From the NCBI GenBank assembly GCA_014803435.1, contig JACYFD010000001.1:682001-746000 (forward strand): a DNA stretch of 64,000 nucleotides. The letters run 5' to 3'. The position numbers were made by a program, and so were the translations under genes. The notes beneath the pieces are model-generated. The model did no database searches, was not told the origin of the DNA, and saw only the letters and a list, made by a program, of their open reading frames with translations. Below, piece by piece: positions 30,360 through 48,456 of the stretch (position 1 is the first letter of the stretch; each line of letters starts with the position of its first letter). This DNA is from Cellulosimicrobium terreum. GTDB lineage: Bacteria > Actinomycetota > Actinomycetes > Actinomycetales > Cellulomonadaceae.

Positions 30360-30397
30360 CGACGGCGCCCGGCCACCTCGGTGGCCGGGCGCCGTCG
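30360..30397. terminator. Strong hairpin between convergent genes
   Basis: A perfect 17-bp stem (30360-30376 with 30381-30397) with a 4-nt loop follows the HtaA gene and faces the HAD gene ending at 30433, so it can serve both. Confidence 0.75.
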
Positions 30398-35170: not shown

Positions 35171-35596
35171 TCAGGACGGGGACGGCTCGTCCTCCGCGCG
35201 CTGCGCGTCCTCGAAGCCGGGGTCCGTGTCCACGATGTCGAGGAGCTCACCGATGCGGGTGACCTCGAGCAGGAACCGGACCGTCGGGGGAGCGCGCAGG
35301 ACGCGCACGCGGTGCGGTCCGCGCGACGCGAGGCGTGCGAGGAACGCGACGCCGGACGAGTCCATGAAGGTCACGTGGTGGGCGTCGATCTCGACGGGCA
35401 GCCCGGAGTCCTCGGCAGCGCTCGTCGCCTCCTGGAGGTCCGCCCCGAGCTCGGCGTCGACCTCGCCCGACAGGACGATCCGGGTCCGTGACGCACCCAC
35501 GATCACATGGACGCTCGCGGGGTCGCCACCGACCCGTGAGGCGTCGGCAGCCGCGCCGACCTCTCGGTCGGCGGCTGAGGGTGTACCGTCGCGCAC
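35171..35596 (-). CDS. STAS-domain anti-anti-sigma factor
   Basis: 141 residues. A 30-residue polar lead is followed by a STAS domain (about 30-125). The phosphorylatable Ser lies in VTFMDSSGVAFLARL (about 76-90), the RsbV/SpoIIAA site. The C-terminus is acidic. In partner switching the unphosphorylated form binds an anti-sigma kinase and frees the sigma factor; a PP2C enzyme dephosphorylates it. The divergent gene encodes exactly such a phosphatase. The GTG start has AAAGGAG upstream. Confidence 0.87.
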   Translation of the reverse strand: MRDGTPSAADREVGAAADASRVGGDPASVHVIVGASRTRIVLSGEVDAELGADLQEATSAAEDSGLPVEIDAHHVTFMDSSGVAFLARLASRGPHRVRVLRAPPTVRFLLEVTRIGELLDIVDTDPGFEDAQRAEDEPSPS

Positions 35597-35719
35597 CGGC
35601 GCTCCTTTCCGCGATCCGGACCGGTTGGGGTCTCGGTGGCCCCCAATCTACGGTTGAATGTCCAGTCGGGACAGTAGCGCGGCCGAGGCGTTCGAATCGA
35701 CTCGGCGCAAATCGGTCGG

Positions 35720-35736
35720 GTTCGTTCGCGACGAAC
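35720..35736. promoter_or_regulatory. Palindrome in the STAS-PP2C intergenic region
   Basis: GTTCGT-TCGCG-ACGAAC, a perfect 6-bp inverted repeat around 5 nt. It lies between the divergent STAS and PP2C genes and downstream of a TACGGT box (35649-35654). It could be an operator; no known regulator is matched. Confidence 0.3.
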
Positions 35737-35775
35737 GGGCCCCGGCCATGCAACGACGCACCGTCGGAGGTGGTC

Positions 35776-38013
35776 ATGAGCAGCTCGTCGAGCCTGGGCA
35801 CGGATCTGCCCGAGGAGCTTCGTCGACTGTGCTCCGACGCGATGGCGAGCTCCGGCGTCGCGATGTTCATCACAGGCCCGCGCGAGGCGGAGATGCCCAT
35901 CGTCTGGGTCAACCCCGCGTTCGAGCAGCAGACGGGATACTCCGCGGCCGAGGTCACCGGGCACAGCCCGCACGTCCTCGAGGCGCTCCTCACCGAGCCG
36001 GTCGACGCGCAGCAGCTGCGCGCGGCCATCGCCGAGGGTCGGGAGGCCACGCAGACGCTGCGTGCCGCGCGCCGGGACGGCTCCCTCGCGTGGATGCGCC
36101 TCTCGCTCTCGCCGGTCAGGTCGTCCGAGGGAGCCGTCACCCACTGGATCGGCGTGCAGGTCGACGTGTCGGAGCACCTCGAGCGCTACGCGACGCAGCT
36201 CGCGTCGCTCGCCACGGAGCGACGGGAACGGGCCGTGCTCGACGTCGTCGCGCAGAGCTCCGACCTGCTCGCCGACCTCGACCAGCCGTACGTGCTGCGC
36301 GACATCACGGAGCTGCTGGGCGGCTTCGTCGTGGACTGGGCCGGGTTCTACCTCAACGACGACGGGTTGCGCTACGCCGAGGGCGTCGACGCGTCGTCCC
36401 CGCCGACCGGGCGCGGGCAACGGCACGGACGGTACACGCCCGGCCTGCTGCAGCCGATGCCGGGACTGCACGAGACGGACGCGCTCGGCGACGCCGCGCA
36501 GGCGAACGCGTCGACGTCCCGGGCACCGCGGATCGACGTCCCGGACCGGGTCCAGGACCTGCTCGACGGTCGGATCGAGGGCCCGGTCGTCCTCGACCTG
36601 TCGGCCGTCTACCCGCAGTGGTCGGCGTCGGGGTGGCTGCAGCGCGACCTGGACCACCGGCTCGCGACCCTCGCCCAGCGCCCGTCGAGCGTGCGGGTCG
36701 TGGCCGTGCCGGGCCGCCGTCGGGTCCTCGGCCTCCTGGTCGCCGGCGTGCTGCCGCCCGTCGACACGTCGTCCCCGGGCCCGCGACAGGGACGGGGGCT
36801 GGACGACGTCACCGACAGCGCGCTCACGCTCCTGCAGGTCGTGGCCCGACGTGCGGGGGCCGCGATCGACAACGTCCGGCTCTACGCCCGCGAGCACCGG
36901 CTCGCGGAGACCCTGCAGCGGGCCATGCTGCCGGAGCAGGCGGACATCAGCGGGCTCGACGTCTGGACGTACTACGCGCCGAACTCGGAGCACGCCCAGG
37001 TCGGCGGCGACTGGTACGACGTCCTGCAGATCGCGGAGGACGTGATCGGCCTGGTCATCGGGGACGTGGTGGGGCACGACGTCGAGGCGGCGGCCGCGAT
37101 GGGCCAGCTGCGCTCCGTCGTGCGGTCCTACGCGTACGAGCTCGTCACACCGGGCCCGGTGCTGGAACGCGTCGACCAGCTCGTCCAGGGGATGCGGATC
37201 CCGCGGTCCGCGAGCCTCGTCTACGCGGCGCTCACCCGGCCGGGAGCCGACGACCAGCAGGCGCCGTGGCGGCTCGAGTACTCGCGCGCCGGGCACCTGC
37301 CCGCGCTGCTCCTGCGGCAGGGCACCGTGACCCAGCTCGACGACGCCGGCGGCCCGCTCGTCGGCTTCGGCGGCAGCAGTCGTGCGACCGGGGTCGTCGA
37401 GGTCCTGCCCGGGGACACGCTCGTGCTGTACACGGACGGGCTGATCGAACGTCGCGACCGGGCCCTGCGCACCGGGCTGGAGGAGCTGGTCGCCGCGTCG
37501 TCCGCCGTCTCCGCCGTCGACGCCGCGGGGGTCGGCGAGGAGCTGCTGTCCCGGCTGGCCGACGCACCCGAGGACGACGTCGCGCTCGTCGTCGTCCGGG
37601 TCCCGAACCCGGTGCGCGACGCCGACACGGTCGCCCTGAGCCCCCGGAGCCGCCGGTGGCTGCTGCCGAGCGAGCCGGCGTCGATCGGCCGCGCGCGGCA
37701 CGCCGTCGTCCGGACCTGTCAGGCCTGGGGCGTGAAGGACTCCGCCAACGCGGAGCTCGTCGTGTCCGAGCTCGTCGCGAACGGCGTCCTGCACGGGTGG
37801 GGTCACCTCGCGCTGCGCCTGTTCGACACGGGCGACGGGATCCGGGTCGAGGTCGAGGACGCCAACCCGGCGCCGCCCGTGCCGACCGACGGGCACGCGA
37901 ACCGCATGGGCGGGTTCGGCATGCAGATCGTGGAGCGGCTCGCGGACTGGGGATGGCGCCCGACGGCGTCCGGCAAGCTGGTCTGGGCGAAGCTGCGACC
38001 GGCCGGGCGCTGA
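35776..38013 (+). CDS. PAS - GAF-like - PP2C (SpoIIE) phosphatase - HATPase regulator
   Basis: 745 residues, cytoplasmic. PAS domain about 20-130: [18 protein letters not shown] and GVQVDVSEH follow the LOV pattern, but the flavin-cysteine motif reads GHSPHVLE instead of GRNCRFLQ. A GAF-like region follows (about 150-370). The PP2C/SpoIIE domain (375-610) keeps metal-binding Asp residues in [22 protein letters not shown] and PEDDVALV. The C-terminal kinase-type HATPase (about 621-745) has [19 protein letters not shown] and [16 protein letters not shown]. So one protein carries both phosphatase and anti-sigma-kinase-like parts. Flanking STAS genes are likely substrates. GGAGG precedes the ATG by 5 nt. 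Confidence 0.9.
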
Positions 38014-42260: not shown

Positions 42261-43817
42261 TCAGGCGCGGTGCCACTTCTGGGCCGCGGTGCCGTTGCAG
42301 GTCCAGATCTGGAGCTGCGTGCCGTTGGCGCTGTTGCTGTTCGGGACGTCGACGCACTTGTTCGCGAGCACGGACACGAGGTCTCCCGCACCGCTGAGCA
42401 CGAACTGCTGGGCGGCGTTCCCGCTGCAGCTCGCGAGCTGCACCGCCGTGCCGTCCGCCGTGTTCGCCCACGCGACGTCCATGCACTTGCCGCCGGCGCG
42501 GACCGTGCCGTCGGGCTCGAACGTCCAGCGCTGGGCGTTCGAGCCGTTGCACGTCCACAGCTGGAGACGCTTGCCGTCGCTGAAGTCCGAGCTCGGCACG
42601 TCGATGCACTTGCCCGCGAGCCCGACGAGCGAGCTGGTGGCGGAGCCGCCGGTCGTGGTGAGGCTCAGCCCGTAGGCCGACAGGATCGGCTGGAGCGGCT
42701 GGAAGATGAACTTGCCCCCGCTGGAGCAGTCGCCGATCCGACCCGACGTCACGCCCTGGGCCTGCGTGCCGGAGATGACCGAGCCGCCGGAGTCGCCGCC
42801 CTCCGCGCACGCGGTGCCGATGGTGAGCCCGGTGGTGGCCACGGACTCGTAGTTGACGGTGACGTTCTTCTGCTCGATCACGCCGCAGCGCCAACCGGTC
42901 GTGCGGCCCGAGCGGCAGACCGAGGCGCCGATCGCCTGCTCGGCCGACCCGGTGACCGCCACGGTCCCGCCGGCGTAGTCGTTCACGCGCGGGGTCGAGG
43001 TCCAGCCCGACGTCGTGCGCACCCACGCGTAGTCCTTGCCCGGCCAGCCGGAGGCCTGGTACGTGCCGAGCGCCGCGCCGTCGGGTGCGGACACCGGGTT
43101 GCCCGCCGAGCCGCAGTGCCCCGCGGTGACGAAACCGCCCTGCACCGCGAAGCCGATGGAGCAGAGGGTGACGTACCCGTTGCCGAGCGGCTTGTGGTAC
43201 TCGTCCCCGCCGCGCACGTCGCGCGCGAGCTCGTAGGGCGCGTCGAGCTGCTCCGTGCGCACGAGGTCGGGGTCGACGCCCGCGTCCTGCACGAACGCCG
43301 CCGCGGCCTTCGGGTCGGTCGACTCGACGACGACCTCGTTGGTCGTCACGTCGACGTACCAGGCCCGCACGGACTCCGGCGCGACGGTGTCGTCGAGGTC
43401 GTCCTGGAGCCCGTCGAGGGTCCCGAGGTCGTGGTCGACGACGACGGCCTGCGCGCCGGTCGCCTCGACCTCGTCGACGAGCGCCGGGTCCGTGACGGCG
43501 ACGGTGGCCGTCGCGGACTCGGTGTCCACCCACGTCCCGGCGTAGGCGTCACCGAGGACCGGCTCGAGCACCGACTCGACGGTCGACGTCGACGCGTCGA
43601 GCGCGAGACGGGCGTCGATCTCCTGCGCGTCGAGCCCGAGGTCACGCTCCAGGGCCTCGACCTGTCCGTCGGGGAGCGTCGCCGTGGTCGCGAGGCCGGG
43701 TGGATCGTCGGTCGTCGGGCCGCTGGTCGCGGCGCTCGCCCCGCCGATTCCTGCCGCGGCGAGCGCGACACTGCTTGCTAGCGCTGTCAGGACGTGGTGC
43801 ATCTTGCGTCGGTGCAT
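42261..43817 (-). CDS. Secreted alpha-lytic-type serine protease with ricin-type lectin domain
   Basis: 518 residues. Signal peptide about 1-30 (ALA-rich, GGASA). An alpha-lytic-type pro-region runs to about 185. The mature S1 protease has His in FVTAGHCGSAGNPV, Asp in KDYAWVRTTS and Ser in CAEGGDSGGSVIS, with paired Cys. The last 130 residues are a ricin B-type lectin fold with three QxW-like repeats (RLQLWTCNGSNAQRW, VQLASCSGNAAQQF, QLQIWTCNGTAAQKW). The domain order equals Rarobacter faecitabidus protease I, a yeast-lytic enzyme that binds mannan; yeast or fungal cell-wall attack is inferred. The ATG is chosen because AGGAGG lies 5 nt upstream (43823-43828). Confidence 0.92.
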   Translation of the reverse strand: MHRRKMHHVLTALASSVALAAAGIGGASAATSGPTTDDPPGLATTATLPDGQVEALERDLGLDAQEIDARLALDASTSTVESVLEPVLGDAYAGTWVDTESATATVAVTDPALVDEVEATGAQAVVVDHDLGTLDGLQDDLDDTVAPESVRAWYVDVTTNEVVVESTDPKAAAAFVQDAGVDPDLVRTEQLDAPYELARDVRGGDEYHKPLGNGYVTLCSIGFAVQGGFVTAGHCGSAGNPVSAPDGAALGTYQASGWPGKDYAWVRTTSGWTSTPRVNDYAGGTVAVTGSAEQAIGASVCRSGRTTGWRCGVIEQKNVTVNYESVATTGLTIGTACAEGGDSGGSVISGTQAQGVTSGRIGDCSSGGKFIFQPLQPILSAYGLSLTTTGGSATSSLVGLAGKCIDVPSSDFSDGKRLQLWTCNGSNAQRWTFEPDGTVRAGGKCMDVAWANTADGTAVQLASCSGNAAQQFVLSGAGDLVSVLANKCVDVPNSNSANGTQLQIWTCNGTAAQKWHRA

Positions 43818-43822
43818 CGTTG

Positions 43823-43828
43823 CCTCCT
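43823..43828 (-). promoter_or_regulatory. Ribosome binding site that decides the protease start
   Basis: AGGAGG on the minus strand, 5 nt before ATG 43817. It overrules the upstream in-frame GTG at 43838, which would add seven residues. Confidence 0.6.
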
Positions 43829-44046
43829 GTGTGCGCACGACGGCGCCACCCTCGTCGGTGACGCCGTGAGCCGGTCAGTCGATCGCATGCCTCCAGGTGT
43901 TGAGCGCGCAGCGGAGCGCACGGCGCGGCAGTCCACGCGGTGCACGACCCTGTGCACGAGGCGTGCGGGAGCGCTCTCACGAACCGCCTCGCCCAGCACC
44001 CTAGCCCGCGGGTGTGCTCGCGTCACCCCCTGGTTCGCCGGGATGG

Positions 44047-45947: not shown

Positions 45948-46666
45948 TGAGCGCCACCTCCCTCGCTACGGCGAAGGTCGGCGTCGTCACCTTCCCCGGC
46001 ACGCTCGACGACCGCGACGCCGCGCGCGCCGTCCGCCTCGCGGGCGGCGAGGCCGTCGCGCTGTGGCACGCGGACGCCGACCTGCACGGGGTCGACGCGG
46101 TCGTCCTGCCCGGCGGCTTCTCCTACGGCGACTACCTGCGCGCGGGCGCGATCAGCCGGTTCGCGCCGGTCGTGGAGTCCCTCGTGGACGCCGCGAACGG
46201 TGGCCTGCCGGTCCTGGGCATCTGCAACGGCTTCCAGGTCCTCACCGAGGCGCACCTGCTGCCCGGCTCGATGGTCAAGAACGACCACCTGCGCTTCGTG
46301 TGCCGCGAGCAGGTCCTCGTCGTCGAGAACGCCGAGACGGCCTGGACGCGCGACTACGCCGCAGGCCAGCGCATCACCATCCCGCTGAAGAACCAGGACG
46401 GCCAGTTCGTCGCCGACGACCGCACGCTCGACGAGCTCGAGGCCGAGGGTCGCGTCGTCTTCCGCTACGACGGGTGGAACCCGAACGGGTCGCGCCGCGC
46501 CATCGCAGGCATCTCGAACGCGGCGGGCAACGTCGTGGGCCTGATGCCGCACCCTGAGCACGCGGTCGAGGCCGGCTTCGGCCCCGCCTCGGCGGCCGGG
46601 CCTCGTGCGGGTACCGACGGGCTCGGCTTCTTCACCTCGGTGCTGAGCGCGCTCGTCCACGCGTGA
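45947..46666 (+). CDS. purQ: Phosphoribosylformylglycinamidine synthase subunit PurQ
   Basis: 239-residue class I glutamine amidotransferase that feeds ammonia to PurL. The nucleophile Cys is in [11 protein letters not shown] (about 87-97), oxyanion [17 protein letters not shown] (about 47-63), and the His-Glu pair in [11 protein letters not shown] (about 200-210). Full length. Its stop overlaps the following GTG by 4 nt. Confidence 0.96.
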
Positions 46667-47775
46667 CCCTCGACGTCCGCGTGCCCGACGACGCGGGCGC
46701 CGTCGCGCACCCCGGCGGACCGGTGGTCGTGGCGCTGGTCGCGAACGACGACGCGGCCGCCGCCGCCCTCTTCGCGCGGCAGCAGGCCGAGCTGGCGGAG
46801 CGCTACGGCGAGCCGGACGACAGCGCGTTCGACACGTCCGGGCTCCTCGCGGTGCTCGTCGCGCACGACGACGGTGCGCCGGTCGCGTGCGTGGCGCTGC
46901 GGGACGTCTCCGGCGCACCCGACGGCCGCGGGGGAAACCACCCGGCGTCGACGGGCGAGGTGAAGCGGCTGTACGTCCTCCCGGAGCACCGCGGCCGGGG
47001 ACGCGCGCGCGTCGTCATGCGTGCCGCTCACGAGCAGGCGACGGCCGCGGGCCTGCGCCTGCTCGTGCTCGAGACCGGCACCCGCCAGCCGGAGTCGGTC
47101 GACCTGTACCTCGACCTGGGCTACACGCCGATCGCCTCGTACGGTCACTACGCCGGCGACCCGCTGTCGCGATGCTTCGCGCTCGAGCTCGACCGACGAG
47201 ACGCACCCGCTGACCGTCCGGGCACGGGTGCGACCAGCGGACGAGCGCCCGCCACGCGACCGAGCGGCGGCCTGCAGGTACGGGCCGCGGCCTGGGACGA
47301 CCCGGTGGCCGCTCGACTACGACGGGAGATGCACGAGACGTCGTCGATCGTCCTCTACCCGGAGCTGGTCGCGGGGTTCGACGCCGCGGGGGGCTTCGAC
47401 GTCGTCGACACCCGCCTCGGGCGCGACGTCGCGGCGACGTTCGTCGCATGGCGGGGCAACGAGCCGGTCGGGTGCGCGTCGTTGCGGCGCGCCGACGCTG
47501 GAGCGCGGGCCGCGCACGGTGAGGCGTTCGAGGTGAAGAAGGTCTTCGTGCGCGAGTGCGCGCGTCGCGGGGGAGCTGCCCGCCGGCTCATGGACGCCGT
47601 CGAGGCGGACGCCCGGCGCCGCGGTGCGGACGCGCTGCTGCTGGAGACCGGGATCCGCCAGCCGGGTGCGATCAGGCTCTACCGCGCGCTCGGCTTCCGG
47701 GCCGTGCGTCCCTTCTCTCCCTACGACGACGACCGGCTGGGGATCGCCCTCTGTTTCGCGAAGCCCCTGGCCTGA
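46663..47775 (+). CDS. Tandem GNAT-domain acetyltransferase
   Basis: 370 residues with two GNAT folds (about 25-175 and 205-370). Each has the acetyl-CoA loop region: [21 protein letters not shown] in the first and [21 protein letters not shown] in the second, followed by [17 protein letters not shown] and [16 protein letters not shown]. In the second copy the R-G-x-G loop reads RRGGAAR, close to canonical. A 30-residue Pro/Thr/Arg linker joins them. The substrate is unknown. It is translationally coupled to purQ, which is unusual for a GNAT and may just reflect operon packing. Confidence 0.88.
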
Positions 47776-47841
47776 CGTCCGGCACGCGCTCAAGAGCTCG
47801 CCATCCTGGACGACCTGATCGACGAAACGCGTGAGGGCGAT

Positions 47842-47847
47842 TACTGT
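47842..47847 (+). promoter_or_regulatory. -10 box of the 28-codon gene
   Basis: TACTGT lies 39 nt before ATG 47887, giving a leader of about 33 nt that contains the ribosome site. No good -35 is visible. Confidence 0.4.
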
Positions 47848-47886
47848 CAGTTCGTCATCACTTGCGACGAAAGGAAGGTGCGAACG

Positions 47887-47973
47887 ATGGGTTGCATCGC
47901 TTACGCCATGTTGTATCCGTTCATCAGCTGGATGGGCGGCGGCTCCCCGTGGTCGGTGTGCTCGGCGGGCTGA
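47887..47973 (+). CDS. 28-residue hydrophobic peptide gene
   Basis: A short gene with a strong ribosome site (AAGGAAGG, 47871-47878, 8 nt before ATG), a TACTGT -10 candidate, and a perfect 15-bp terminator hairpin 42 nt after the stop. The peptide has Cys at 3 and 25, five aromatic residues in positions 6-22, a central WMGGGSPW segment and a small-residue end (CSAG). Residues 3-16 are hydrophobic enough to span or associate with a membrane. I do not recognise a family. Options: small membrane protein, peptide toxin, signal or modified-peptide precursor, or leader peptide. Base use is less G+C-rich than in neighbours. Confidence 0.5.
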   Translation: MGCIAYAMLYPFISWMGGGSPWSVCSAG

Positions 47974-48015
47974 GAAGACCGGTGGCAGGTCTCCTGCCGC
48001 TCAGCTGATCTGCAG

Positions 48016-48049
48016 GACAGGTCGGCCGCTCCCCAGCGGCCGACCTGTC
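48016..48049 (+). terminator. Terminator of the 28-codon gene
   Basis: GACAGGTCGGCCGCT (48016-48030) pairs perfectly with 48035-48049 around CCCC, followed by TCTCTTC. The strongest pyrimidine-tailed hairpin of the window. Confidence 0.75.
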
Positions 48050-48144
48050 TCTTCGCGCCAAGGAAGCTGGTCAGGCACGACCAACCGTCCACCGCGCGAC
48101 GCCGCCGAGGGCAGGTTGTCCTGGTTCATCCCGGCCTCAGCCGC

Positions 48145-48150
48145 TAGGGT
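48145..48150 (+). promoter_or_regulatory. -10 box of the 48157 gene
   Basis: TAGGGT ends 6 nt before ATG 48157. Confidence 0.5.
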
Positions 48151-48156
48151 CGGGGC

Positions 48157-48456
48157 ATGCTCCCAGCCGTGACCGGTGTCTACTCCGTGCCCGCGCTCCT
48201 CGGTGAGCTCGTCGGCTGGGTGCTCGGTGCGGTCGCCCTCGTCCCCGGTCGGGCGGGCGCGCTCGCGGGGCAGGTCCGAGAGACCGCGATCGCATGGGGC
48301 CTGCCCGTCACCGAGGTGACCGACCTGTACGCGGCGTTCCCCTCCCGGCTCGTCCTCGCCGTCGTCGCCCTGGCACTCGTGAGCGCGACGATCGCGCTCG
48401 TCCACGGCGTGCGCGAGCTGCGCACGCGGCGACGGTCGGCCGTCCCCGGGCGCTGA
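48157..48456 (+). CDS. Small two-helix membrane protein of unknown function
   Basis: 99 residues. Hydrophobic segments lie at about 11-33 and 62-84, followed by a basic end (RELRTRRRSAVPGR), so the C-terminus should be cytoplasmic. No motif is recognised. The leaderless promoter box supports a real gene. It is convergent with the LLM oxidoreductase gene, 8 nt away. Confidence 0.6.
   Translation: MLPAVTGVYSVPALLGELVGWVLGAVALVPGRAGALAGQVRETAIAWGLPVTEVTDLYAAFPSRLVLAVVALALVSATIALVHGVRELRTRRRSAVPGR

Follow-up and report, generated by a model that had tools for sequence, protein, structure and literature searches.

The locus lies between two genes on the forward strand of the window, by which we mean the whole 64-kb stretch of DNA analysed here (Table 1). 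On its left is a gene for a double-GNAT acetyltransferase, and on its right a gene for a conserved 99-aa protein. For the space between them, a reading made from the sequence alone had proposed an autonomous 28-codon gene with a -10 element, a ribosome-binding site and a terminator of its own. When we read the sequence directly, the TACTGT, the SD-like AAGGAAGG, the 8-nt gap, the ATG and the 28 codons were all in place. The encoded peptide, MGCIAYAMLYPFISWMGGGSPWSVCSAG, has Cys at positions 3 and 25 as described, and the perfect 15-bp hairpin is present 42 nt after the stop of the 28-codon frame, with arms (48016-48030 and 48035-48049) that are 100% complementary. The frame 5' of the ATG does stay open back to the stop of the GNAT gene (TGA 47773-47775), which gives 65 codons in all. 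The first in-phase ATG, GTG or TTG of this longer frame is the GTG at 47878.

Table 1. Features between and around the acetyltransferase gene and the gene of the 99-aa protein.
Feature	Position	Strand	Basis or remark
Double-GNAT acetyltransferase gene, 370 aa, left neighbour	46663..47775	+	Acetyltransf_1 of Pfam, matched over two stretches (6.1e-28)
65-codon open frame from the GNAT stop	47776..47970	+	G+C by codon position 0.55/0.51/0.78
Insert, ~300 bp, approximate extent	47785..48088	.	Alignment with 15 congeners, distances to the -10-like site of the next gene, G+C
34 in-phase codons 5' of the ATG	47785..47886	+	Coding-like composition; antisense phase equally good
Weak promoter-like pair TCGACG-17-TACTGT, 7/12	47819..47847	+	Not above chance
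TACTGT (proposed -10)	47842-47847	+	Sequence
SD-like AAGGAAGG	47871..47878	+	Sequence; 8 nt before ATG 47887
28-codon frame, uncharged hydrophobic/aromatic peptide	47887..47973	+	TGA 47971-47973
First small hairpin 3' of the stop	47981..48001	+	9-bp stem, 3-nt loop
Perfect 15-bp hairpin, terminator-like	48016..48049	+	Loop CCCC, tail TCTTCGCG
Conserved stretch 5' of the 99-aa gene	48116..48150	+	Ends in -10-like TAGGGT (48145-48150)
Conserved 99-aa protein gene, right neighbour	48157..48456	+	

The strength of the 15-bp hairpin lies far beyond chance. It folds with -33.8 kcal/mol (48012-48056; z -7.1), and none of 200 shuffles was as good. The 64 kb contain two places with a perfect stem of at least 15 bp and a loop of 3-8 nt, and this hairpin is one of them. 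We observed no stem of at least 14 bp in 60 random windows with the same trinucleotide make-up as the window; in a separate set of 20, such stems averaged 0.05 per window. The longest perfect stem in the corresponding gaps between the GNAT gene and the 99-aa gene of the congeners is 8 bp. The first small hairpin, taken alone, has a z of -1.7, with 12 of 200 shuffles as good. The 271-nt region as a whole folds with a z of -2.8, whereas the RNA of 47850-47973 alone has no structure beyond chance (z 0.08); the excess of the region is thus owed to the hairpins.

A stable, G+C-rich stem-loop that follows a reading frame and exceeds chance is the mark of a terminator, and we predict that the 15-bp hairpin ends transcription. 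Its tail, TCTTCGCG, has three T in the 8 nt after the stem; a scan for consensus terminators, which needs five T, listed none. Some actinobacterial terminators have been described as long G+C-rich stems with few or no U (PMC8269248, PMC8355165), and Streptomyces clavuligerus has highly structured 3' ends and 'I-shaped' terminators (PMC8269248). The hairpin resembles such terminators in its long, perfect, G+C-rich and stable stem, its 4-nt loop, its place 3' of a frame and the small hairpin nearby. It differs from them in that its 3' end is predicted from the sequence and in that its tail falls just on the U-rich side of the limit used for S. clavuligerus (three or more U within 8 nt; PMC8269248). 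A second perfect hairpin, of 17 bp and with no T-tail, is located at 30360-30397 between two convergent genes, as fits a terminator. Together, the two hairpins suggest that terminators in this genome are long stems followed by a short U-tract or none. A known small RNA was rejected, as no Rfam family reached the gathering score for the region and the nine weak matches (best E 0.006, 31.7 bits compared to a cut-off of 70) all overlap the hairpin.

To place the locus among its relatives, we compared it to other Cellulosimicrobium genomes, with one genome per species. The GNAT protein was matched in all 17 genomes of the genus, its own included, and the junction 3' of the GNAT gene was readable in 15 of the 16 congeners (G015 was left out because its contig ends near the match). 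In each of these 15 congeners the 99-aa gene directly follows the GNAT gene, and the alignment contains no counterpart of the DNA from about 47785 to 48088. The TAGGGT of the 99-aa gene is found about 20-105 nt past the end of the GNAT match in the congeners, compared to 369 nt past the GNAT stop here. The extra DNA, whose edges were set by eye and are good to perhaps 10-20 nt, has a G+C content of 62.8% compared to 74.1% for the window, and it partly coincides with those 200-nt stretches whose G+C is the lowest in the whole 64 kb. It is thus absent from 15 congeners, and because one gain is simpler than a loss in all the others, it is most simply read as a recent insertion. The insert is present as a single copy: a test for a mobile element or MITE revealed no further copies in its own genome and no long repeats at its edges. 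As the 64-kb window contains no tRNA, we dismissed a tRNA-linked integration.

We found no relatives of the frame or of the insert in the searches run. The conservation in relatives by which the sequence-only reading had proposed to check the 28-aa peptide did not appear among the 16 congeners (best E 1.59). Of the observations that it named as refuting, the lack of conservation is thus what we see, whereas the case of a hairpin kept with the frame lost has no example, because the 15 readable congeners lack the insert as a whole. When searching with the 65-aa frame, we obtained no credible match in 220 further genomes of the family (best E 0.0017), 395 genomes of the order (best E 0.014) and 395 of the phylum (best E 0.009), and no match at E 0.01 in 393 genomes of the class, where these samples overlap and the E-values hold per single genome. 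Pattern scans of genome contigs (158 stretches) and viral contigs (12 stretches), which start from an exact seed of 8 residues and therefore overlook distant relatives, confirmed nothing. The frame had no match in plasmids and phages, and none at E up to 10 in NCBIfam (including the precursor families), PHROGs, PADLOC and PDB sequences; Pfam gave only DUF6064, below the cut-off (E 0.17). With the DNA of the region, phages gave no match and plasmids only hairpin-sized matches in five of them (E 0.3). In literature on Cellulosimicrobium small proteins and on orphan small genes, the locus was absent among the matches listed.

Two candidate homologs of the frame were rejected. The first, which was matched in one of 221 genomes (G220; E 0.0017, 51% identity over 38 residues), is broken by a stop and located inside other long frames. 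The second (L074; E 0.009) ends near a stop like the frame in the window and is out of phase inside a 334-aa gene, presumably for a metallo-hydrolase. Read on the matching strand, all 14 weakly matching loci were partial and four had a stop inside the match; most of them are flanked or enclosed by longer frames with a different content.

A few short matches of the insert DNA led to purL. Among 219 other genomes of the family, one (G044) contains a 42-nt match of 86% identity (E 7.2e-5 for that genome), and a 26-nt match of 92% occurs in G001; the gene that carries both is, as we take it from its sequence, purL (L025 is 77% identical to the L095 protein). Translated in another phase of the window, the piece in common gives Pro-Val-Val-Gly-Val-Leu-Gly. 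The loci L019, L020 and L022 match the same stretch and show no purL. At the genome's own purL locus, 56 kb away, matches of 22-29 nt are found inside purL (E 0.18); one 24-nt match (E 0.004) lies outside it and involves the hairpin. The purL protein matches the insert in three pieces of 9-15 residues in different frames, with E-values of 0.004-0.08 that refer to one tiny subject. We dismissed a purL-derived insert, as these matches probably reflect a common hydrophobic coding motif together with chance.

The pair TCGACG-17-TACTGT, which includes the proposed -10, matches the consensus at 7 of 12 positions, a match that is equalled in 21% of random stretches of the same composition, so that a promoter of its own is unsupported. 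A promoter scan, limited to the sigma-70-type consensus, found none on either strand. The complete arrangement, in which an SD and a start precede 20-60 codons and a stem of at least 12 bp follows within 80 nt, is found once among the 16 SD-ORFs of the window and never in 60 random windows, where SD-ORFs have a mean of 21 per window and are thus more frequent than in the real one. SD, ATG and 20-60 codons alone occur in 2.2% of random 340-nt stretches of local composition, or in 6.4% when ATG or GTG is accepted.

The coding signal is clearest in front of the ATG. None of 3000 shuffles of the 65 codons was both open and had such an excess of third- over second-position G+C (GC3 0.78, GC2 0.51). 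To score coding potential, we used an average amino-acid model with a GC3 of 0.75. With this model, the 34 codons 5' of the ATG score 0.12 per codon (p 0.001 for phase, p 0.0065 against the best of six phases), similar to real genes, as 12 pieces of the GNAT gene score between -0.23 and 0.33. The 28 codons score -0.19 (p 0.19), and another phase scores higher; the average model may be unfair to them because the composition of the peptide is odd. By the codon use of the window they reach a p of 0.007, and by third-over-second-position G+C a p of 0.045. A gene of 28 codons that stands on its own, as the sequence-only reading had it, is therefore unproven: its start and frame are there, whereas the clearer signal lies upstream in the same phase, where no start codon exists, and the searches run gave no relatives. 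This upstream signal favours the longer product that had been kept as a caveat or, more simply, a truncated gene.

Short unannotated frames are also known from Mycobacterium tuberculosis, another G+C-rich actinobacterium, where they are widely translated, most of them with no sign of codon selection; that study also used the third-minus-second-position G+C measure and detected the frames by ribosome profiling (PMC9094748). The frame described here is read from the DNA letters. As translation there mostly comes without codon selection, proof of translation would not prove a function here.

We tentatively favour, with a probability of roughly 40%, the reading that the insert is the 3' end of a foreign gene together with its terminator, which was inserted behind the GNAT gene and now insulates the purQ-GNAT side from the next gene. 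This reading is supported by the absence of the insert in 15 congeners, its lowest G+C, an upstream coding signal that has no start codon, the codon-position bias of the 65 codons as a whole, and the hairpin (z -7.1). A recent insertion of about 300 bp would have brought the end of the foreign gene and the hairpins that ended its transcript. The 65-codon frame would be the truncated C-terminal part of this gene, and the '28-codon gene' its hydrophobic tail, with a chance internal ATG behind an SD-like purine run. At present, RNA from the purQ-GNAT side would most simply fold the 15-bp hairpin and stop; given termination there, transcription of the 99-aa gene would rely on the conserved promoter in front of it. 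A peptide translated from the ATG, if there is one, would be incidental. From these features we infer the foreign origin and the truncation; a parent gene of the 65-codon frame was not found in the searches run. What counts against a truncated gene is the 2.2% rarity of SD and ATG, the antisense scores given below and the distribution of charge: the 65-codon frame encodes 15 charged residues as we count them, all of which precede the ATG while none follows, and a true start at the ATG would put the break exactly there.

Alternatively, the ATG at 47887 may start an orphan small gene, whose uncharged aromatic 28-residue peptide acts at the membrane as a microprotein, a toxin-like peptide or a signal, and whose short mRNA ends at the hairpin. 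SD, ATG, stop and hairpin stand in order in the sole such unit of the window. Among random frames of like composition, 0.09% have no charged residue at all and 0.045% combine this with such hydropathy; both properties were chosen after the peptide had been seen. The p-values from codon use and third-over-second-position G+C also speak for this gene, whereas the average amino-acid model, the promoter at chance level and the lack of a relative in the searches run speak against it. The best 19-residue hydropathy of the peptide is only 1.05, and the AlphaFold model of the 65 residues is uninformative (pLDDT 44). We thus regard an orphan gene as doubtful, and its stricter form, an intact mini-gene, newly acquired or newly born, that encodes an orphan charge-free aromatic 28-residue membrane peptide with its own SD and terminator in one species so far, as unlikely. 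Type I toxin-antitoxin systems and related small membrane peptides, for instance TisB, Ldr, Fst and Ibs, offer a comparison: such peptides are likewise hydrophobic and have about 30 residues, but the 28-aa peptide differs from them in having no charge at all, a short hydrophobic stretch and no relative in the searches run, and for an antisense RNA the promoter scan gave no candidate on either strand. Precursors of modified peptides (RiPPs) resemble the longer frame, with a charged N-terminal and an uncharged, Cys-containing C-terminal part in one frame; here, however, this frame has no start codon and no NCBIfam match. No modifying enzyme was recognised among the ten neighbouring proteins scanned.

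In a further reading, the insert might have no coding role. The hairpin alone would then be functional, either as a terminator or because a small RNA has its 3' end there, and chance would explain the open frames. Of all features, the hairpin exceeds chance the most, the RNA of 47850-47973 has no structure beyond chance (z 0.08), and a 65-codon frame of such composition stays open in 22% of shuffles. Set against this are the codon-position bias in the frame and, for the small-RNA version, the Rfam result, in which nothing reached the gathering score and all nine weak matches overlap the hairpin; we consider a purely non-coding insert improbable. The coding signal could also belong to the minus strand, in a foreign gene fragment read from about 47997 down into the GNAT antisense. 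The antisense phase scores slightly above the sense phase for the 34 codons 5' of the ATG (0.18 compared to 0.12 per codon) and for the insert codons up to the SD (0.31 compared to 0.18), and slightly below it for all 62 insert codons (0.03 compared to 0.05), so that the coding strand of the insert is not settled, and the antisense frame is open for 227 codons. However, its GC3 is 0.55, its first in-phase start is only the TTG at 47793, and in G+C-rich genes the codon-aligned frame of the antisense strand often stays open and looks coding. Its matches in 47 of 219 other family genomes are weak (16-22 bits, best E 0.001) and mostly fall in the Arg/Ala-rich part; no Pfam or NCBIfam family and no plasmid matched, and phage matches had E 1 or worse. 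A gene on this strand is thus very unlikely. Least credible of all is that the TGA of the GNAT gene is sometimes read through, which would add the 65 codons as a hydrophobic tail to the acetyltransferase. The frame is in phase with this TGA and has no starts for 34 codons, and TGA followed by C is a leaky stop context; nevertheless, one in three frames is in phase by chance, and none of the 15 readable congeners has the tail.

Should the peptide be produced, the locus would be a clean example of a small gene confined to one species, with the empty site to be seen in 15 congeners, and would lend itself to work on how tiny genes are born or captured in G+C-rich bacteria. Otherwise, it would illustrate that a gene takes more than an SD, an ATG and a hairpin in the proper order.

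Lastly, we list observations on the neighbouring genes. The GNAT gene overlaps the end of a purQ-like gene. Its protein matches seven loci on genome contigs, five in Cellulosimicrobium (61-67% identity) and two in Streptomyces (37-39%), and in G006 and G001 the loss or a shift of its stop codon alters the C-terminus. No Pfam or NCBIfam family was above the cut-off for the 99-aa protein. In the window and in the 15 readable congeners, only about 6-7 nt separate the -10-like TAGGGT from the start codon of its gene downstream, and the mRNA of this gene may therefore be leaderless. Elsewhere in the window, a gene at 35488-38013 encodes a protein with PAS, SpoIIE phosphatase and HATPase domains (Pfam). 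On the minus strand, a gene at 42261-43841, whose product combines an alpha-lytic-protease prodomain with a ricin-type lectin domain at the C-terminus (Pfam), sits between a purD-like gene (GARS domains) and a purC-like gene (SAICAR synthetase).
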